Positions 14,936 through 25,368 of a stretch of 64,000 nucleotides of DNA are shown here, in pieces. Made by a program: the position numbers and the translations under genes. The notes beneath the pieces are model-generated. The model saw nothing but the letters and a program-made list of their open reading frames with translations. It did no database searches and was not told where the DNA came from. Origin of the DNA: an uncultured Verrucomicrobiae bacterium (GTDB lineage: Bacteria; Verrucomicrobiota; Verrucomicrobiia; Limisphaerales; J093); contig CALFAV010000030.1 in assembly GCA_937946835.1 (NCBI GenBank), positions 1 through 64,000 on the forward strand, in the 5' to 3' direction. Position 1 is the first letter of the stretch; each line of letters starts with the position of its first letter.

Positions 14936-15223
14936 GGTGCTGTATGAGCGCTACTGTGATTCTGAGACGCGGCCGGCGTTTGGGTTACCCAACGGCGACC
15001 CCCGGCGAGTTTGTTGACTTCGGCGTCGTCAATTCGCTCCCCGCTTGTGCGCCGCTCCGGCCGATCTGTAAAGCCCAAACCGCCCGCCCGACCGCTCCCT
15101 TCCGCCCGTCACTTTTTCACTAAGAAATTTCCGCAACCCGGGTCATACTCCCGGAAGCTCATGCAAGCGCAGCGTTTGACGGCCGGGCAAACCTCCCGGC
15201 TCCCGCGGTGGCGATGACCCGGC
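14936..15223. other. Divergent intergenic region, korA / sigma factor
   Basis: This 288-base gap must hold the promoters of both the kor operon (leftwards) and the sigma operon (rightwards). CATACA lies 5 bases before the korA ATG on the minus strand but has no good -35 partner. On the plus strand TTGACG at 15176-15181 has no clear -10. The AT-richer tract near 15115-15135 is the least GC-rich part. I cannot assign an ECF-type promoter with confidence. Confidence 0.3.
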
Positions 15224-15784
15224 ATGGCCTCGACCGAATCCGCCTCCAACGCCGGTCCTGCGCCCGAGAACGTGCTCGGGTGGTTTGAGGTCCTCGAGTC
15301 GCCGTTGCTGGCTTACGCCCGGCGCCTGCTGGCTGACGCCGACATGGCCCAGGAAATCGTCCAAGAAGCCTTTCTGCGGTTGCACGCGCAGTTTGACCGG
15401 GTGCAAGACCCCCGCCGCTGGCTCTTTCGCACCGTGCACAACCTTGCCCTGAACCGGCGCCGGGACGAGCGCCCCATCGTCCCCCTGGCCGCGCCCGGGA
15501 CTCCCGCCGAGTCGGAACCCGCTCCCCACCCCGAGCCGGCCGACCCGCAACCGCCGCCGGACGAGTTGCTGGCCCGTTGGGAAGCGGTGGGCCTGGTGCG
15601 CCTGGGCCTGCAACACCTGGATGCCCGCAGTCGCGAATTGCTCGAACTGAAATTCGCCCTCGACCTCTCTTACAAGGAAATCAGCGCCTGCACCGGTCTG
15701 AGCGTCGGCCACGTCGGCTACCTCCTCCATCACGCCCTGAAAAAACTGGCCGCCGAGCTGACCAAAGCCGGCTACGTCTCATGA
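15224..15784 (+). CDS. ECF-like RNA polymerase sigma factor
   Basis: This 186-residue sigma-70-family protein contains region 2 at about 20-90 ('YARRLLADADMAQEIVQEAF', 'FRTVHNLALNRRRDE') and region 4 at about 120-180 ('LDARSRELLELKFALDLSYK', 'EISACTGLSVGHVGYLLHHA'). The linker at about 88-118 is unusually proline-rich. The next gene overlaps by ATGA and encodes a membrane protein with an anti-sigma-like N-terminus. This suggests a sigma/anti-sigma pair in which the sigma factor is held at the membrane. Confidence 0.88.
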   Translation: MASTESASNAGPAPENVLGWFEVLESPLLAYARRLLADADMAQEIVQEAFLRLHAQFDRVQDPRRWLFRTVHNLALNRRRDERPIVPLAAPGTPAESEPAPHPEPADPQPPPDELLARWEAVGLVRLGLQHLDARSRELLELKFALDLSYKEISACTGLSVGHVGYLLHHALKKLAAELTKAGYVS

Positions 15785-18324
15785 ACGCGGTTCCCCCCAC
15801 CCCGCCCGCCTCCGACCCGGAAGCGCGCCTGACCGCGCTGCTCCTGGGCGAGCTTTCGCCCGCGGAAGCCGCGGAGGTGCAGGCCGAACTGGCGCGCCGA
15901 CCGGACTGGCTGGACCTGTTCACCCGCCTGGCCCGCACGCTGCCCTTGGTGCGCGAGGCGGTCCGCGAACCGGACTCCTCCCACCTCGCGCCCCCGCCGG
16001 CCGCGGAACCGCCCCGCCCGCCCGCGGAAGCCCCGCGACTTTCCGCCGAGCGCCGGCAAGCCCTGTTGGCCGCGTTCAAAACTGCGACTCCATCCCCGGA
16101 CTTTGCCGCCGGGGCGCAACCCGCGAAACGGCGCACGCCCTGGCTGGCCCTGGCGGCGGTGTTTGCCGCTTTGCTGGTGGTTGGCGGGGGGCTGTTGCTG
16201 CCGAGCCTGACCCGGGCCAGGGCCAAGGCGGAACGCGTCAGCCAGCTCACCCGCGATCGCCAGGCCGAGTTGGCGCGGCGCTTGGCGGAGGGAATCCCCG
16301 GGCCCCTCCGCGAACCCAGCCCCGCGGTCGGCATCCCCTTGGTGGAAACCCTGGATGCGAGTTCCCCGCGGGGGCAGGGCGAGAGCGAAAGCTCCGGCCG
16401 ATCGCTGGGACGTGCGGCCGCTCCCGCGTCCGTTGCCACGGCCACAGGTGCCCCACTGGAAGCGTCCCGGGCATTGCCCGGCGCCGCCGGGGGAGTTCCC
16501 GCCCCGCCAGGGGCCCGGTTGGGGGCCACGAATTTAAAACTGATGTTGCGCTACGGCCTAACACCCGGTGCGGCGGACTCCAAAACACAAACGAGTGAGG
16601 CGCTCGCCGCGGAGCGCTTGCTTCCGAAGGCGGCGGTTCCCACACCGGGCAACCTGCCCCCAGCGGACACCGCGCTGATGGCGGTTCCACCTACGCCGGC
16701 CCTAGCGCCCAGTGCCGGCTCGTTGAGTGAGGAGCACAAAGAGCCGGTCCCGGTGCGGCCGAGCGCCCCCCGGGTGGACCGCAAGTTGTTTTTCAAGGCA
16801 CCGGCCGTGGCGGGTGACTCGGACCGGAGCGCTCCGGCGCTGCAGGCGTGGGGTGAGGGCGCTGCCGCCACAGGTCCGCCGGTGCGCGGTGGGGAACTTG
16901 GGCTGCTGACTGAAAAGGATGATGACGCGGCCGGGGACAGGACAGGGAGCACGGGCCTCGGTGGAGGCTTCGGTGGTGGCGTGCCGGTGGTCCACCCGCC
17001 CGAAGTGGCCACGGCTAAAAACCCCTTTTCGACCTTCTCGTTGAACGTGAGCGACGTCTCGTTCCGCCTGGCCGCCGCCAGCCTCGAGGCCGGGAGTCTG
17101 CCCGAGCCGGCCGGCGTGCGGGTCGAGGAATTCATCAACGCCTTCGACTACCGCGACCCCGCTCCGGCCCCGGGCGCGCCGCTGGCCTTTCACTGGGAGC
17201 GCGCGCGGCACCCCTTCGCCCACAACCGCGAGCTGGCGCGCTTCAGTGTGCGCACCGCCGCCGTTGGCCGCGAGCCGGGCCGCGCCCTGAACCTGGTGCT
17301 GGTGTTGGACCGTTCCGGTTCGATGGAGCGGGCCGACCGCGTGGCCACCTGCCGCGAAATGTTGCGCCAACTGGCCGCCCAGCTCACCCCGGCCGACCGC
17401 CTCAGCGTGGTGACCTTCGCCCGCACCGCGCGGCTTTTCGCCGACGGATTGCCCGGTGTCCAGGCCGGTCCGGTGCTCGAGGAGGCGGCCGCGCTCACCC
17501 CCGAGGGCGGCACCAACCTCGAGGACGCCCTGCGGCTGGGCTACGCCACCGCCGCGCGACATTTCCTGCCCGGTGGGGTTAATCGGGTGATCCTGATCAC
17601 CGACGGTGCCGCGAACCTGGGGGACGTGATGCCCGAGTCGTTGCAACAACTGGTCGAGGAAAACCGCCGCCGCGGCCTGGCGCTGGATTGCTTCGGCGTG
17701 GGCTGGGAGGACTACAACGACGACCTGCTCGAGGTCCTCGCCCGCCACGGCGACGGCCGCTACGGCTTCCTCAACGCGCCGGAAGAAGCCGCCGCCGGGT
17801 TTGCCGCGCAACTGGCCGGCGCGCTCCAGGTCGCCGCCGCCGATGTAAAGGTGCAGCTCGAGTTCAACCCGGCCCGGGTTACCCGCTGGCGGTTGATCGG
17901 CTACGCGAAGCACCTGCTCGCCGCCGCGCAGTTCCGCGACAACACCGTGGACGCGGCCGAAATCGGCGCCGCCGAGGCCGGCAACGCCCTGTACGCGCTG
18001 GAGGTCAACCCGCAGGGCCACGGGCCGCTGGGCGTCTTCCGCGTGCGCTGGCGCGTGCCCGCCACCGGCCAGTACCGCGAGCAGGAGTGGACGCTGGCCT
18101 GGTCGGGTGCCGCGCCCGAGGCCCCGGCCGCCAGTCCCGCGATGCGCCTGGCCCTGACCGCCGCGCTGTTCGGCGAGTGGCTGGCGCAAAGCCCCTACGC
18201 CGGAGAGGTCTCGCCCGACCGCCTCCTGCCCCTGCTCGCGGGCGTGCCCGAGGCCTGGGCCGACCCGCGCGTGGTCCGGCTCCAACAGATGCTCGAACAG
18301 GCCCGCGCCCTGGCCGGGCGCTAA
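15781..18324 (+). CDS. Membrane VWA protein (YfbK-like) with anti-sigma-like N-terminus
   Basis: This protein has 847 residues. Its first 60 ('LTALLLGELSPAEAAEVQAEL') look like the cytoplasmic part of an anti-sigma factor, and one transmembrane helix lies at about 121-143. A long low-complexity linker follows to about 410. Next comes the YfbK/VWA N-terminal domain ('FSTFSLNVSDVSFRLA', from about 414), then a von Willebrand A domain with the MIDAS 'LDRSGSM' (about 508), 'GGTNLEDAL' and 'ITDGAANLGD', and a C-terminal DUF3520-like domain to 845. VWA domains bind protein ligands through the metal site. The open frame extends upstream, but the ATG at 15781 overlaps the sigma gene stop and begins the conserved part. 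I infer that it senses an envelope ligand and controls the sigma factor. Confidence 0.85.
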   Translation: MNAVPPTPPASDPEARLTALLLGELSPAEAAEVQAELARRPDWLDLFTRLARTLPLVREAVREPDSSHLAPPPAAEPPRPPAEAPRLSAERRQALLAAFKTATPSPDFAAGAQPAKRRTPWLALAAVFAALLVVGGGLLLPSLTRARAKAERVSQLTRDRQAELARRLAEGIPGPLREPSPAVGIPLVETLDASSPRGQGESESSGRSLGRAAAPASVATATGAPLEASRALPGAAGGVPAPPGARLGATNLKLMLRYGLTPGAADSKTQTSEALAAERLLPKAAVPTPGNLPPADTALMAVPPTPALAPSAGSLSEEHKEPVPVRPSAPRVDRKLFFKAPAVAGDSDRSAPALQAWGEGAAATGPPVRGGELGLLTEKDDDAAGDRTGSTGLGGGFGGGVPVVHPPEVATAKNPFSTFSLNVSDVSFRLAAASLEAGSLPEPAGVRVEEFINAFDYRDPAPAPGAPLAFHWERARHPFAHNRELARFSVRTAAVGREPGRALNLVLVLDRSGSMERADRVATCREMLRQLAAQLTPADRLSVVTFARTARLFADGLPGVQAGPVLEEAAALTPEGGTNLEDALRLGYATAARHFLPGGVNRVILITDGAANLGDVMPESLQQLVEENRRRGLALDCFGVGWEDYNDDLLEVLARHGDGRYGFLNAPEEAAAGFAAQLAGALQVAAADVKVQLEFNPARVTRWRLIGYAKHLLAAAQFRDNTVDAAEIGAAEAGNALYALEVNPQGHGPLGVFRVRWRVPATGQYREQEWTLAWSGAAPEAPAASPAMRLALTAALFGEWLAQSPYAGEVSPDRLLPLLAGVPEAWADPRVVRLQQMLEQARALAGR

Positions 18325-18342
18325 GCCCCGACTCCTTTTCGC

Positions 18343-21300
18343 ATGAACACTCCCCTGTCTGTGTTGTCCGGAACCACTGCCCCGCGCTGGTTGGCTCTGG
18401 GCCGGCTCCTGGCCGCGTTGGGTCTGGCCCTCACCCGGCCCGAACCATCCGCGCACGGCGGCGAGGCGACACCCATCGAGGTCCGGCGCGCCACCCTCAA
18501 CGGCCAACTCGAGGGCGACAAGGCCCGGCTGGTCATCGAGGCGGATTTGAGCGGGCTGGGCGCCGCCACGCGCCCGGCGGTGTACGGGGCCAACTTCGAG
18601 CAACACCTCGAGGTCCGCGCCGGGGAGATCCATCAGCAGGTGCGGGTGCAGGTCGAGGCGTTGCAGGGGGAGCTGCGCGAACTGGTCTTCGCCCTGGCCG
18701 GCACGGGCGAGGTGCGCCAGGTCACCGGCGAGGGGTTGGCGGACTGGGCCCTGCGCCAAACCCCCGCGGGCCGGCAACTGGTCTTGCGCCTGCAGCGCGG
18801 GGAGGCCCCGGTGAAGCAGTTTGCCGGCGCCTGGAGCGCGGTCACGCCGCTCCCGGAGCTGCCCGCCACGGTCCAACCCTTGACCTTCGCCACCGAGCCG
18901 GCGCTGCTGGCCGGGGGTTTTGTGCGCGTGGACGCACCGCCCGGGTTGACGGTCGAGCCGGGCTCGCTCGCCGGCTTGGTCCCGATCGAACCGCGCTTCC
19001 TGCCCGAAGGGCTGCGGCCGGCGGACACCAACGCCGCCCCGCCGCTGGCCTTCCGCTTCCAGGGGGCCTTGGGTGCGTTGCCGCTGCAGATCGCCCTGGC
19101 CGATCCGGAGGCACGCCGGGTGACCCTGCACGATTTTCAACTGCGCGGGACCCTGGCCGAGGAGCGGGCACATTTCCAACTGAACGCCACCGCCCGCGTG
19201 CCCCGGTCCGCGGGGCGACGGCTCGAGCTGCTCGGCGGGGACGCGGCCCTGGCGGCCGTGGCGGTGCCGGAGGGCGTGCGGTTGCATTTTACCAACGGCG
19301 CCTACGTGGCCGAGTTTGACCGCGCGGGGGAATTTGCGCTGGCGCTGGAGTTCGACGCGGCCGTGCGGCGCACCAACGGCTGGCGGGAGGTGAGTTTTGC
19401 GGTGGCCCCGGCGGCCACCATGCCGGTCCGCCTGGCGGGGTTGCCGGCGGACACACAGTTGCGCCTGCCCGGTGCCGCCCGACCCGAGCGGCAGGGGGAC
19501 GTGTTTCTGAGTCACCTGCCGCCGGACGGTCGGGTGCGGCTGGCCTGGCAGGAGGGCCGGCCCGAGGCGGAGGGACGCCTGTTTTTCTCGGCCGAAATGC
19601 TCGGGCAGGTGACCGTCAGTCCCGGGTTGTTGCGGCAGGCGGCGGTGTTCGATTTCCGGGTGATGCAGGGCGAGATGAGCCGCGTGGATTTGGCCCTGAC
19701 GGGCGACGCGGAGGTCACGCGCGTGGTGGGCGACGCGGTGCTGGCCTGGAACGTTTCGTCGCCGGACGGCAAGGGGCGGCGGCGCCTGGAAGTTCAACTG
19801 AACGCACCTCAGAAGGACAGTTTCAGCCTGGCCGTGCACTTACAGCAGACCTTGGGCGCCTTTCCGTTGTCTCTGACGGCCGCCGGGCTGGAGCCCGAGG
19901 GCGCCACCCGGTTCGCCGGGTTTGTCCGCGTGACCACGCAGGGCGCGGTGCGGCTGGACGTGCTCGAGGCGAGCGGCCTGGCGCAGATTTCGCCGGAGCA
20001 GGTGCCGTTGAGCGACGCAGTCCGGGCGGCGCTGCCCTCACCGGGCCAGACGGTGTTTGCCTACCGGTTTGCCGGCCCCGGCGCGCGGCTGCGGTTGCAG
20101 GCGGAGGATGTCCGGCCGGAGCTGGCCGTGTCCGCGGTGCTGACCTATCACCTGGGCGAGACGGAGTTGGGCATCGAGGCGGAGTTCGAGGTGGACGTGC
20201 GGGAGGCGCCGTTGCGGGAACTGCGGGTGCGGGCGCCGACCGGTTTCAATGTGGTCGCGGTGCAGGCGGCCGGGATGAGCGAGTACCTGGTGTCCGATGC
20301 CGCCGAGGACGCGGTGCAGGTGCGGGTGGTGTACGGCACCCCGGTGCTGGGCCGGCAACTGGTCACGCTGCGGCTGGAGCGCAACGAAAGCTTCCGCGCG
20401 CCGCGCTGGACCCTGCCGCGCCTGGAGGTGCTCGAGGCCCGCGCCACCCGCGGTCAGGTGGGTGTGTCGGCCGACGCCGGCTTCCGGCTCACCCCGGCGC
20501 TCACCCGGGGGTTGGCCGAGATGGCCACGGCCTTTTACCCGAAGCCGCGCCCGGGCCTGCAGGCGGCCTTTCGGATCACCGACGCCGCGTGGGCGGCGGA
20601 CCTGGCGGTGGAGCGGTTGCCGCAAACGGTGCAGGTGGACGCCTTTCACCTCTTTTCGGTGGGCGAGGGCGTGGCCTACGGCAGCTCGGTGTTGAACTAC
20701 CTGATCAGTGGCGCGCCCGTTTCGACCCTGAGCGTGGAACTGCCGGCGGAGGTGGCCAACGTCGAATTCACCGGTCGGAACGTGCGCGCCTCGCAGAAGA
20801 CCGCCGAGGGCTGGCGCGTGGAGTTCAGCCAGCCGCTCTCCGGCGCCTACACCCTGCTGGTCACCTACGACCGCCCGTTCAAGGCGCCGGGCGACCAACT
20901 GGCCTTCACCGGCGCCCGGCCGCTGGGGGTGCAAACCGAGCAGGGCTACACCGTCGTGGTCAGCACCTACCAGTTCCAGGTCCGGCCCGTGAACGTCTCG
21001 GCCGCGTTGACCGCGCTGGAGCCCGGGGAGGTCCCGCCCGAGTTCCGGTTGTTGTTCGACGCCCCGGTGCTGGCCGCCTACCGCTACACCGCGCGGCCGT
21101 TCAACCTCGAGCTGGCCCTCCAGCCCCTGGCCCAGGGCGAAATGCTCAGCCAGGTCGTGGACCGGGCCGCGCTCACCACCCGCATTTCCCGCGACGGCCA
21201 GGCGGTGACCGAGGCGCGCTACTACGTGAAGAACAAAGGCACCCCGCACCTGCGGCTGGTGTTGCCCGAGGACGCCAGCCTCTGGTCGGCCCAGGTCAAC

Positions 21301-24300
21301 AGCAACGCCGTGGTGCCCATCCGCGACGGCCGCACCAATCTGATTCGCCTGCCCCAGCACCCCGATCCCAACACACTCAACGAGGTGGTGATCAAGCTGG
21401 CCACCACCAATGCCCGCCCCCGCCGGCTCGCCCTCGAAACCCCGGCCCTGGCTGCGCCGGTCCTCTTGGCCGACTGGCAACTGCTCCCCGATTCCGACCG
21501 CCGCCTGAGCTTTCAGGCCGGCACCCTCCCGCCGGTGTCCGGAGCCGGGAAGCTCACCGGCTTCGCCGTCCTGGCCCGACTCGGGACAGGTCCCGACCGC
21601 GCCGGCGCATGGCTGCGCGCCCTGGGCATTCTCGCGCTGGCGCTGCTGGCGGTGCGGCTGACGCGCGGACTGGCCCGCACTGCCGGGGGGCGGTTTGCCG
21701 CCAAACGTCTGGGAGCGGCGGCGCTGGCCGTGCTGGCGCTGGCGTTGGCCGGCGGCCTGTTGGCGGGTTGGGTGGCTTCGGCGAAAAAGTCCGGTGCCTC
21801 CGATGGCTTGCGGTTTGTGGCCCCGGTTCAGCCGCCCGGCGCCGTGCTCCGGGCCGAGGTCGTCAACGAGGCGCGGACTGCGACGCTTGGGGGGCACCTC
21901 GGAAGTTTCTGGCCGGCCGGGCTGGCGGTGCTGGCCTGGGCGCTGGCGCGGGGCGCCACCGCGCCGCCCCGCGCCCGCTTTTGGCGGGCGCTGGCGTGGA
22001 CCGCGCTGGCCTGGGCGGCGCTGCGCCAGCCGGACGGCGGCGTGTGTTTTGCCGGTGTGGTCGGGTTGTTCCTGCTGGTCCAGGTGCTGGTCCCGCTCGG
22101 GCGCGCTTGGTGGCGGGTGCCGCCGGCCGCCGGCTCGACCGCGGGGGTGGCCGGAGCGGCGGCCACCGCAACGACGTTGCTGGCGGTCCTGGTCCCGGGG
22201 GTGGGCGGGACGTTGCCCGCGGCCCGTGCGGCTGAGTCGCCGCCCCCGATGGCCGAGCGCGTCGAGCAGGAGCTCCGGGTCGAGGGGGAGTACGTGTTGG
22301 GTCTGGCCCGGTTGCGCTGGCCGGCCACGGCGGGCCAAACCCTGCCGGTGTTGCGGCCGCCGGGGGTGCTCACCGGCTTCGAGCTGCACACCGGTGCGGC
22401 GCGCCTGATTCAGAGTGGCGAGCCGGGCCGCCCCGAACAGGGGCTGCTGGCCGGCACCAACGGATGGATTGAAGCGACGCTCCGGTATCAGGTCCCGGTG
22501 GGGCGGCAGGGCGAGAGCCACGGATTTTATGTTCCGGTGCCGCCCGGACTGGTGAATTCACTCACCCTGAGTGTGGTGGGCCGGGACGTGGAGGTGACCT
22601 CGCCCCAGGCCGTCTCCGGGCAACGGCTTTCTCCGGAGGGCGGGACCAACACGGTGGTGGCGCTGGTGCTGCGGCCGGCGCCGGAGACGTGGATCGGGTG
22701 GCAACCGCGCCAGCGCGACACGCGCCGGGAGGTGGCGGTGTTTTACGCGGACTGGACCCAGGTCTATGTGCCGGGGGCGGGGGCGGTGGGGGGAGTGCAT
22801 GTGGCGCAGGTGCGTCCGGCACAGGGGGAGTTGAGCGAGCTGGTTCTGGAGGTGCCCGAGGGCGCCGCCGTGACCGACGTATCCGCGCCGGGCCTGGCGG
22901 CCTGGCGGTTTGACCCGGACACCCGGCAGTTGCGGGTGCGGCTCAGCCCCGCCCAGTCCCGCGCTTTCAGTGTGCAAATCCGGTCCCAGTCCCCGGCGGG
23001 GGCGCTGCCGGCCGAGTTGAAGGTGGGGCTGATGCGGTTGCGGGGCGCGGCCGGCGAGGTGGGCGTGGTGGGTGTGGCCACGGGCGATGAGGTGCAGGTG
23101 GACGCGGTGGAGGCGGGCGGGCTGGCGGCGATCAACCTCGAGGATTTCCCGTCCTCGGTGCTCGCACCATTGGCGGCCCAAACCCCCGGCCTGGCGGTGC
23201 GCCGCGCCTTCCGGTACGCCAGGGCGGAGGCCGCGCTCCGCCTGCGCGCGGCCCCGGTCGAACCCGAAGTGCGGGTCGAGTCCCAGCAAACCCTCTCGCT
23301 GAGCGAGGACCGCGTGCTGTTGGCGGTCACCTGGACGGTGGACATCACCCGCGCCGGGGTGTTCCGGCTCAGCTTCGCACTGCCGGCCAACCACGAGGTC
23401 GAGTCGCTCAGTGGCCCGGCGCTGAGCCACTGGACGGAGTTGAAGAGCGACCCCACCAACCGGCTGGTCACGCTTCATCTGAAGGGCCGCACGCTGGGAC
23501 GGCAGACCTTTGCGCTCACGCTGGTCGGCCCGGGCGTGCGGGCGGCGTCGAACTGGGTGGTGCCGGTGGTGCACCTGCGCGAGGCGCACCGCGAGCGGGG
23601 GCAGTTGCTGGTGGCGCCCGAGCAGGGGCTGCGGGTGCAGGTGGCCGCGCGCGAGGCCGTCGTGCCGTTTGATCCCGCCGAAGCCGGGGCAAGGCAGAAG
23701 GGGGTGCAGGCCTTCCGTCTGCTGCAGCACCCGTGGCGGCTGAGCCTGGACCTGGAGCCGGTCGAGCCGTGGTTGCAGGTCACCAGCCTCCAGCACGTGA
23801 CGGTGGCGGACGCGCAACTGCTCGTGCAGGCCAACCTCCAGTACGAAATCGAAAACACCGGCGTCAAAACCCTCCTCGTGCGCCTGCCCGCCGCGGCGGA
23901 AAACGTCCGGTTTCGCGGCGAGGCGGTGGCCGACTTCACCCCGCGCGAGGCGCCCGCCGGGGCCGCCGACCGCGACTGGGAGGTCAAACTGCACCGCCGG
24001 GTGATCGGCCGGCACCTGCTCCAGATCAACTACACCCTGCCGTTGGCGCCGACGGCGACCGAGGCGGAAATCCGCGCCGTGCAGGCGCAGGAGGTGAGTT
24101 TGCAGCGGGGCTTCCTCACCCTGGCCGCCGCCGGACGGCTCCAGGCGCGGGTGACGGAGGTGCCGCCCGCCTTGCAGTCCACCGAGTGGCAGGTCATCCC
24201 CCGCGCCCTCCAGCGGGACCTCGCCGCAGCGGCGGCCAGCTACACCTTCCGCCTTATCGAGCCGGCCGCCCGCCTGACGGTGCGGTTGGAACGGCACCAG

Positions 24301-25368
24301 GCCGCCAGCCTTCTGCCGGCCCGGGTCAACCGCGTCGAGCTCAAGTCGGTGGTGGCGGACGACGGCGGGATGCTCACCCACACCCGCTTGGAGCTGGTGC
24401 CGGGCGACAAGCGGCTGCTGCACGTGCGGCTGCCGGCCGGTGCGCAGTTCTGGTTCGCCTTCGTGAATCAAAACAGCGTTTGGCCCTGGAACGACGGGGA
24501 CCAGGTGCTGATTCCGCTGCAACAGCACGCCGGCGGCCGCGACCCGATCGTTGTCGAGTTCTTCCACACCAGCCCGGCCGGCCGGGCGGCACCGGACGAG
24601 CTGGACCTGGCGCTGGTGGGGCCGCGGCTGGATCTGCCCTTGGAAAACGTCACCTGGCAGGTCTTCCTCAACGACCGCTGGCGGGTGAAGTACCGGTCCG
24701 GCACGCTGCAATGGCAGCAGACCCGGCGGACCTACGGCGCCCTGCCGGACTTGGCGGCCTACCTCGACCAGGAATCCGCCCACCGGCGCGAACAGAGCCA
24801 GCAGGCCGAACAATTCCTGTCCCAGGGCAACCGGTGGCTGGAACAGGGCGACACCGGTCGGGCGCGGCAGGCCTTCCAAAACGCCCTCCAACTTTCGCGC
24901 AGCGACGCCGCCTTCAATGAAGACGCGCGGGTGCAACTCCAAAACCTCAAGATGCAACAGGCCCTCATGGGGCTGAACCTGAGCCAGACCCGGGTGACCG
25001 GTCAGGCGCCCGCGCCCGGCGTCGGCGCGGCCCGCACGCCGCCGCCGGCGCGGCAGGTCCCGGAGCGTGGCGCCGTCGAGGAAGGCGCCATCCCGCTGAA
25101 GCTGGCCGAGCGCCTCATCCAACAACAGGAGGCGGCCGCGGCCAGCCCCACCGCCCTGCGGGTGAGTCTGCCCGAAGGGGGTCAGGTGCTCACCTTCACT
25201 CGTCCCCTGGCGGTCGAGGCGTGGACGGATTTGCAGGTGCGCCTGGGCGCGACCACCGCGTCGGACCGGGTCTCGCGCCCCGCCCGGGCGGCGCTGCTGC
25301 TGGCGATCCTGGGCATCGGCTGGGTGCTCCTGCGGCTGACCCCGGGGCGGTCGGCCTTCGACGCTTGA
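18343..25368 (+). CDS. Giant membrane protein built from a tandem ectodomain duplication
   Basis: This 2341-residue protein belongs to no family I can name. It begins with a likely signal or anchor sequence. Residues of about 270-1080 align collinearly with 1308-2125 at a constant offset near 1045. Examples are 445 'MSRVDLALTGDAEVTRV' with 1497 'LSELVLEVPEGAAVTDV', 537 'AVRLDVLEASGLA' with 1582 'EVQVDAVEAGGLA', and 962 'KGTPHLRLVLPED' with the matching strand near 2010. Both copies are rich in beta strand. Between them lie about five or six membrane helices (about 1087-1298). After copy two come a TPR-like stretch ('LSQGNRWLEQGDTGRARQAF', about 2160) and a final helix (2316-2335). It starts 18 bases after the VWA gene, so it is the third gene of the sigma operon and probably an envelope partner of the VWA protein. 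Confidence 0.85.
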   Translation: MNTPLSVLSGTTAPRWLALGRLLAALGLALTRPEPSAHGGEATPIEVRRATLNGQLEGDKARLVIEADLSGLGAATRPAVYGANFEQHLEVRAGEIHQQVRVQVEALQGELRELVFALAGTGEVRQVTGEGLADWALRQTPAGRQLVLRLQRGEAPVKQFAGAWSAVTPLPELPATVQPLTFATEPALLAGGFVRVDAPPGLTVEPGSLAGLVPIEPRFLPEGLRPADTNAAPPLAFRFQGALGALPLQIALADPEARRVTLHDFQLRGTLAEERAHFQLNATARVPRSAGRRLELLGGDAALAAVAVPEGVRLHFTNGAYVAEFDRAGEFALALEFDAAVRRTNGWREVSFAVAPAATMPVRLAGLPADTQLRLPGAARPERQGDVFLSHLPPDGRVRLAWQEGRPEAEGRLFFSAEMLGQVTVSPGLLRQAAVFDFRVMQGEMSRVDLALTGDAEVTRVVGDAVLAWNVSSPDGKGRRRLEVQLNAPQKDSFSLAVHLQQTLGAFPLSLTAAGLEPEGATRFAGFVRVTTQGAVRLDVLEASGLAQISPEQVPLSDAVRAALPSPGQTVFAYRFAGPGARLRLQAEDVRPELAVSAVLTYHLGETELGIEAEFEVDVREAPLRELRVRAPTGFNVVAVQAAGMSEYLVSDAAEDAVQVRVVYGTPVLGRQLVTLRLERNESFRAPRWTLPRLEVLEARATRGQVGVSADAGFRLTPALTRGLAEMATAFYPKPRPGLQAAFRITDAAWAADLAVERLPQTVQVDAFHLFSVGEGVAYGSSVLNYLISGAPVSTLSVELPAEVANVEFTGRNVRASQKTAEGWRVEFSQPLSGAYTLLVTYDRPFKAPGDQLAFTGARPLGVQTEQGYTVVVSTYQFQVRPVNVSAALTALEPGEVPPEFRLLFDAPVLAAYRYTARPFNLELALQPLAQGEMLSQVVDRAALTTRISRDGQAVTEARYYVKNKGTPHLRLVLPEDASLWSAQVNSNAVVPIRDGRTNLIRLPQHPDPNTLNEVVIKLATTNARPRRLALETPALAAPVLLADWQLLPDSDRRLSFQAGTLPPVSGAGKLTGFAVLARLGTGPDRAGAWLRALGILALALLAVRLTRGLARTAGGRFAAKRLGAAALAVLALALAGGLLAGWVASAKKSGASDGLRFVAPVQPPGAVLRAEVVNEARTATLGGHLGSFWPAGLAVLAWALARGATAPPRARFWRALAWTALAWAALRQPDGGVCFAGVVGLFLLVQVLVPLGRAWWRVPPAAGSTAGVAGAAATATTLLAVLVPGVGGTLPAARAAESPPPMAERVEQELRVEGEYVLGLARLRWPATAGQTLPVLRPPGVLTGFELHTGAARLIQSGEPGRPEQGLLAGTNGWIEATLRYQVPVGRQGESHGFYVPVPPGLVNSLTLSVVGRDVEVTSPQAVSGQRLSPEGGTNTVVALVLRPAPETWIGWQPRQRDTRREVAVFYADWTQVYVPGAGAVGGVHVAQVRPAQGELSELVLEVPEGAAVTDVSAPGLAAWRFDPDTRQLRVRLSPAQSRAFSVQIRSQSPAGALPAELKVGLMRLRGAAGEVGVVGVATGDEVQVDAVEAGGLAAINLEDFPSSVLAPLAAQTPGLAVRRAFRYARAEAALRLRAAPVEPEVRVESQQTLSLSEDRVLLAVTWTVDITRAGVFRLSFALPANHEVESLSGPALSHWTELKSDPTNRLVTLHLKGRTLGRQTFALTLVGPGVRAASNWVVPVVHLREAHRERGQLLVAPEQGLRVQVAAREAVVPFDPAEAGARQKGVQAFRLLQHPWRLSLDLEPVEPWLQVTSLQHVTVADAQLLVQANLQYEIENTGVKTLLVRLPAAAENVRFRGEAVADFTPREAPAGAADRDWEVKLHRRVIGRHLLQINYTLPLAPTATEAEIRAVQAQEVSLQRGFLTLAAAGRLQARVTEVPPALQSTEWQVIPRALQRDLAAAAASYTFRLIEPAARLTVRLERHQAASLLPARVNRVELKSVVADDGGMLTHTRLELVPGDKRLLHVRLPAGAQFWFAFVNQNSVWPWNDGDQVLIPLQQHAGGRDPIVVEFFHTSPAGRAAPDELDLALVGPRLDLPLENVTWQVFLNDRWRVKYRSGTLQWQQTRRTYGALPDLAAYLDQESAHRREQSQQAEQFLSQGNRWLEQGDTGRARQAFQNALQLSRSDAAFNEDARVQLQNLKMQQALMGLNLSQTRVTGQAPAPGVGAARTPPPARQVPERGAVEEGAIPLKLAERLIQQQEAAAASPTALRVSLPEGGQVLTFTRPLAVEAWTDLQVRLGATTASDRVSRPARAALLLAILGIGWVLLRLTPGRSAFDA

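Follow-up and report, generated by a model that had tools for sequence, protein, structure and literature searches.

In pairs of an ECF sigma factor and a class I membrane anti-sigma factor (SigW-RsiW, SigE-RseA, SigK-RskA), the sigma factor is built from regions 2 and 4 and is encoded behind a promoter that precedes its gene. The overlapping gene specifies the anti-sigma factor, which crosses the membrane once, starts with the anti-sigma domain and has a small protease-sensitive domain as its outer part. VWA proteins are known from other settings. The Bat operon encodes the VWA proteins BatA and BatB, the beta-rich BatD and the TPR protein BatC, and is not known to include a sigma factor; YfbK (DUF3520) VWA proteins combine PF12450, a VWA domain and PF12034. 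In iron-type cell-surface signalling (FecI-FecR-FecA), a sigma factor with a very small target set works together with a regulator in the membrane and a large protein of the envelope. The fecIR genes are not autoregulated (PMC9249621).

A great many of the ECF sigma factors and giant genes found in Verrucomicrobiota are unstudied. The locus described here, located in a 64,000-nucleotide stretch of DNA that was analysed as a whole (the window), encodes an ECF-type sigma factor, a VWA protein with an anti-sigma-like N-terminus and a giant membrane protein (Table 1). This trio ties one ECF type to an anti-sigma factor with an integrin-like metal site, a promoter and a giant family, across classes of the phylum.

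Table 1. Features of the sigma-VWA-giant locus (positions in the window).
Feature	Position	Strand	Size, evidence or remark
Predicted ECF-type promoter, CTAAGAA-N13-GGGTC, then ATAC	15120..15144	+	about 80 nt before sigma start
ECF-type sigma factor gene	15224..15784	+	186 aa; Pfam and PDB relatives
Single-pass anti-sigma / YfbK-type VWA protein	15781..18324	+	847 aa; ATGA overlap with sigma gene
Cytoplasmic anti-sigma domain, zinc-less version (predicted)	15781..16080	+	hhalign to zinc-type homologues
Transmembrane helix, aa 122-140	16144..16200	+	hydropathy; similar place in most homologues
YfbK N-terminal domain, PF12450	17005..17238	+	Pfam, E 1.2e-14
VWA domain, intact MIDAS (D510, S512, S514, T578, D608)	17290..17760	+	Pfam, alignment
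YfbK C-terminal domain, PF12034, two stretches	17821..18234	+	Pfam
Giant membrane protein, family without named domain	18343..25368	+	2341 aa
Ectodomain 1, tandem beta-sandwich domains	18460..21597	+	AlphaFold pLDDT 88.1
Membrane bundle, about 6 hydrophobic segments between ectodomains (aa 1088-1287)	21604..22203	+	hydrophobicity
Ectodomain 2, duplicate of ectodomain 1, helical hairpins at end	22228..25047	+	AlphaFold pLDDT 90.5; hhalign
C-terminal transmembrane helix, aa 2316-2334	25288..25344	+	hydropathy

Gene organization and conservation

A sequence-only reading of the window had proposed three tightly packed genes, and all three are present where it placed them, the first two sharing an ATGA overlap and the third following after a gap of 18 nt. 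The same reading regarded the trio as a possible signalling module, to be refuted if related genomes did not keep it. We gathered 146 giant-bearing loci from relatives and from GTDB records, and collapsing near-copies left 86 testable orthologue clusters; the named GTDB records in this set are all Verrucomicrobiota by title, save one titled 'bacterium'. VWA and ECF sigma genes lie upstream of the giant orthologue, on the same strand, in 82 of the 86 non-redundant testable loci and in several Verrucomicrobiota classes, a count with a slight bias towards the trio because a locus qualified as testable with 4.5 kb or more of sequence upstream, or with less if the trio was visible there. This result confirms that the sigma-VWA-giant gene order goes well beyond chance, and the refuting condition did not apply. 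The cultured Haloferula sp. BvORR071 (L187) is among the carriers of the trio. In 53 of 91 trio pairs, the sigma and VWA genes overlap by exactly 4 nt, with ATGA as the usual form. Four giant orthologues are found without the trio: in one locus (L212) the sequence stretch ends too early, and in the other three (L183, L220 and L227), where 5.7-9.4 kb upstream are covered, the absence appears to be real.

Two observations concern individual records. In a locus of the same genus (L082, genome G003), the sigma gene is intact and the VWA and giant genes are broken by many frame changes, which reflect either assembly errors or decay. Five loci (L127, L132, L141, L173 and L196) come from metagenome records titled 'Akkermansia muciniphila'; these titles look unreliable, since the records placed in the sigma tree scatter over different branches.

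The sigma factor matches Sigma70_r2 at residues 25-83 (1e-11) and Sigma70_r4_2 at residues 129-175 (2e-10), and the Pfam search found neither region 1.1, nor region 3, nor any other domain in its 186 residues. Its best PDB relatives include SigL and SigW, the latter being the partner of RsiW. In the sigma tree, the trio sigmas are compatible with a single origin, although the branch that unites them is poorly supported.

Pairs of a sigma gene and a YfbK-type VWA gene without a giant (dyads) occur in the same class (L110-L121), and a dyad and a trio are sometimes present in one genome (L119 and L120 in G142). The dyad upstream regions show a first element like that of the trio promoter described below, with CGTTA as the second element in 2 of 10; some of them read CTAAGAAA...CGTTA. 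With this related predicted promoter, the dyads would represent a sister system type. Giant paralogues, in turn, occur without sigma or VWA genes: the distant ones (26-30% identity) have a VWA neighbour in none of nine cases, and their neighbours are mostly unrelated, with no partner in common. Both observations lend some weight to a reading in which the trio is a general YfbK-type ECF pair with the giant attached as an ordinary target, the VWA signal being unrelated to the giant and the giant standing outside the signalling. Nevertheless, we consider this reading rather improbable, as a giant orthologue that lacks the pair is a rare exception (82 of 86 loci have it), the dyad sigmas form a separate clade that does not mix with the trio sigmas, and a mere target could have moved away. 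Since the VWA and giant genes are linked in almost all genomes, it is likely, though no more than likely, that the two proteins are functionally connected. Taken together, the data support the view that the ECF sigma factor, a class I-type transmembrane anti-sigma factor with an outward VWA domain and the giant constitute one conserved module.

Predicted promoter and regulon

An alignment of the regions upstream of the sigma genes revealed a bipartite element, CTAA(G/T)(G/A)A-N13-G(T/G)GTC, with a spacer of exactly 13 nucleotides. The consensus was written as CTAAKRA-N13-GTGTC and widened to [CT][CT]AA[GT]NN-N13-[GT]NGTC. Of 79 non-redundant trio loci, 45 carry the loose form (0.18 expected) and 58 the widened consensus (0.64 expected); about one quarter of the trio loci, including most of those from other classes, do not carry the motif as written.

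The element is also rare elsewhere in these genomes, as judged by exact matching, which misses degenerate sites. The pattern matches the window genome (89% complete) once, at the trio. A stricter form gives a single match per genome in 7 of 10 relatives, all seven at the trio, and in other families a variant gives a single match in 7 of 13 genomes, six of which lie by position at the trio, including one in a one-contig complete genome; the remaining match (G222:C7) is not at the trio. A control pattern with a spacer one base shorter had no trio match in 8 genomes. When up to three mismatches were allowed in 14 genomes, four extra sites were found in two relatives (G006 and G012), and a reversed-pattern control also gave four matches, so that single matches at this level mean little.

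Two of the extra sites lie 60-70 nt before alpha-2-macroglobulin-type genes (L255:1516-9618 and L256:5358-13466), the 2,700-residue products of which contain TPR, MG2 and A2M domains and are 73% identical to each other. The other two precede genes for a small protein that shares the sequence RPQxSLRIPVTPANRExLRxLRxAE between the two relatives (L257:5559-5946 and L258:1686-2110). These sites may be true targets, given that the promoter elements are kept while the spacers have diverged, and the alpha-2-macroglobulin gene is a possible further member of the regulon. Because the extra sites precede alpha-2-macroglobulin and small genes, the regulon may not always consist of the operon alone.

Very probably, the main target of the sigma factor is the trio operon, and the sigma factor would then be autoregulated in vivo. 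With a promoter almost confined to the trio, it seems to serve chiefly the operon that encodes it. It follows that the giant would be first of all an output of the system; it is best seen as a product under regulation, whereas a role as ligand of the VWA domain is no more than possible.

The same data bear on an arrangement in which the giant is the sensor, binding the VWA domain and relaying mechanical or envelope signals to a sigma factor whose regulon comprises many envelope genes elsewhere. Such a role would suit a membrane protein with two large ectodomains whose gene is tightly linked and conserved with the other two, and VWA MIDAS domains usually bind protein ligands. However, the near confinement of the sigma promoter to the operon speaks against a large regulon that shares this promoter type and makes this signalling model less likely; we regard it as improbable.

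The giant membrane protein

The giant had been described as a membrane protein with huge beta-rich ectodomains, and the AlphaFold models agree, both ectodomains being predicted as almost all beta with pLDDT values of 88 and 90.5; the arrangement of the beta-sandwich domains relative to each other is uncertain, since the pTM is low. Residues 435-1062 and 1487-2122 share 29% identity, and a profile-profile comparison of the two ectodomains extends over 795 columns with an E value of 2e-74 (hhalign). The alignments indicate that the two ectodomains derive from an ancient internal duplication and flank the membrane bundle. Both can be placed on one side of the membrane, because about six hydrophobic segments separate them and a further one is located at the C-terminus. 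The bundle's final hydrophobic segment (window 22135-22240) ends in GGTLPAARAAES, which resembles a signal peptidase site; cleavage there might divide the giant into two halves.

Searches of the giant against Pfam, NCBIfam (E below 0.01) and the PDB gave no significant match, neither to BatD nor to any other named beta-rich partner. The top Foldseek matches for both ectodomains, ribophorin I/Ost1 and integrin alpha, were rejected as relatives: TM-scores do not exceed 0.32 and rmsd values are about 20 or more, so that the likeness reflects a generic tandem beta-sandwich architecture. A second giant family of about 2,500 residues (L083-L097, for example L084:5089-12594 and L092:3006-10559), 26-30% identical to this giant, is found on its own in many relatives and lacks VWA neighbours; two of its members (L092 and L097) are flanked by a divergently oriented gene for another ECF sigma factor, accompanied by a partner of 500-620 residues.

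The VWA protein

The VWA protein matches PF12450, VWA and PF12034 with 54.5, 49.6 and 93.2 bits, respectively, against Pfam cut-offs of 25, 27 and 25. Its VWA domain, described in the sequence-only reading with an intact MIDAS, indeed has the metal ligands of the DxSxS motif, the threonine and the aspartate (D510xS512GS514, T578 and D608). All of them are invariant among 12 diverse homologues, and 111 of 111 sequences carry DxSGSM. An identity as marine sortase target protein (TIGR03788, VIT-VWA) was discarded, as the match reaches 37 bits against a curated cut-off of 552. The domain presumably lies outside the cell membrane and faces the periplasm. The transmembrane helix continues into LLLPSLTRARAKAERV (window 16144-16260 for both), a strict form of which is found in 13 of 101 homologues; this segment presumably resembles the one that follows the transmembrane helix of pseudopilins in Verrucomicrobiota.

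The anti-sigma-like character proposed for the cytoplasmic start of the protein is backed by its homologues. The N-terminus in the window matches zf-HC2 below threshold only. By contrast, the Hx3Cx2C zinc anti-sigma motif is found in 15 of 15 trios from other classes with a readable N-terminus, and nowhere else among 101 VWA open reading frames, being missing from the window and from its class. All 12 of the aligned zinc-type N-termini match zf-HC2, and their profile retrieves the anti-sigma factors RsiW (1e-8, the best match), ChrR (3e-6) and DdvA (7e-5) from the PDB. The window-type and zinc-type profiles in turn match each other with 98% probability (E 3e-13, 82 columns; hhalign), and the window-type N-terminus keeps the helix pattern EARxxALLLGELSxxEAAEL. 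There is thus good sequence support for the N-terminus in the window as a zinc-less homologue of the zinc anti-sigma domains, and it may well bind the sigma factor. The Hx3Cx2C motif is not required for a class I anti-sigma domain, because zinc-less domains are common and functional in this class, as in RseA and RskA (PMC7406223). That the N-terminus is a mere membrane anchor which has lost its zinc ligands and no longer binds a sigma factor controlled in some other way, as the missing ligands and the sub-threshold zf-HC2 match could suggest, is very improbable in view of these functional zinc-less domains, the conserved helix pattern, the profile match to zinc-type orthologues and the ATGA coupling of the two genes.

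Proposed mechanism

We think it fairly probable that the locus is a self-contained, autoregulated sigma/anti-sigma operon with the giant as its main output. The cytoplasmic class I-type anti-sigma domain of the VWA protein would tether the sigma factor to the inner membrane, while the VWA domain, through its MIDAS, would read the periplasm and set the amount of sigma held. A change in the occupancy of the VWA domain, or strain on it, would release the sigma factor, probably via proteolysis or a conformational change. The freed sigma factor would transcribe from the CTAAKRA-N13-GTGTC promoter, chiefly at its own operon, and the output would be more sigma factor, more anti-sigma factor and more of the bipartite giant. 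The latter is probably an envelope scaffold or a surface structure, and it may provide feedback if it engages the VWA domain in turn. Candidates for the VWA ligand are the giant, another envelope component or something extracellular.

Because the sigma factor seems to target chiefly the operon that contains its gene, the trio probably works as one system that monitors the cell surface and produces the giant on demand. A more specific version, in which the sigma factor serves essentially one giant's operon and the VWA anti-sigma factor monitors the assembly or engagement of that giant, would amount to phylum-wide assembly feedback or contact sensing. We put it forward tentatively, as a possibility short of an even chance; if true, it would be a type of system without earlier description. 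With so small a predicted regulon, the signal, the regulator and the output are open to joint testing.

Comparison with known systems

The ECF sigma factor, the class I-type anti-sigma domain and the YfbK-type VWA protein are each of a known kind. A literature search, which did not extend to the main ECF classification and most subscription papers, found no description of a VWA anti-sigma factor or of the trio. Within the reach of this search, no earlier account was found of the way the parts are combined, of the giant family, of the promoter sequence or of a regulon so nearly private, which falls short of proving novelty.

With the Bat operon the trio has in common that the gene of a membrane VWA protein adjoins one for a membrane protein of several beta-rich domains that also has TPR-like helices. 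This is a resemblance only, as the trio has no BatD, MoxR or DUF58 match in Pfam. All three domains of the YfbK proteins are present in the trio VWA protein; in contrast to YfbK, they are fused behind a transmembrane helix and an anti-sigma domain, and the C-terminal domain is split into two stretches.

The FecI-FecR-FecA system is similar in its overall composition of a sigma factor with very few targets, a membrane regulator and a large envelope protein. None of the three trio proteins has a FecR domain, a TonB-dependent receptor domain or a secretin/TonB short domain (Pfam), and a predicted promoter precedes the trio sigma gene whereas fecIR lacks autoregulation (PMC9249621). A close parallel is with the SigW-RsiW, SigE-RseA and SigK-RskA pairs, with which the trio shares the two-region sigma factor, the promoter before the sigma gene and, overlapping that gene, a second one whose product crosses the membrane once and begins with an anti-sigma domain. 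The trio departs from these pairs in its outer part, a YfbK-type VWA domain with an intact MIDAS in place of a small protease-sensitive domain, in its permanent giant partner, and in a predicted regulon that comprises almost only its own operon.
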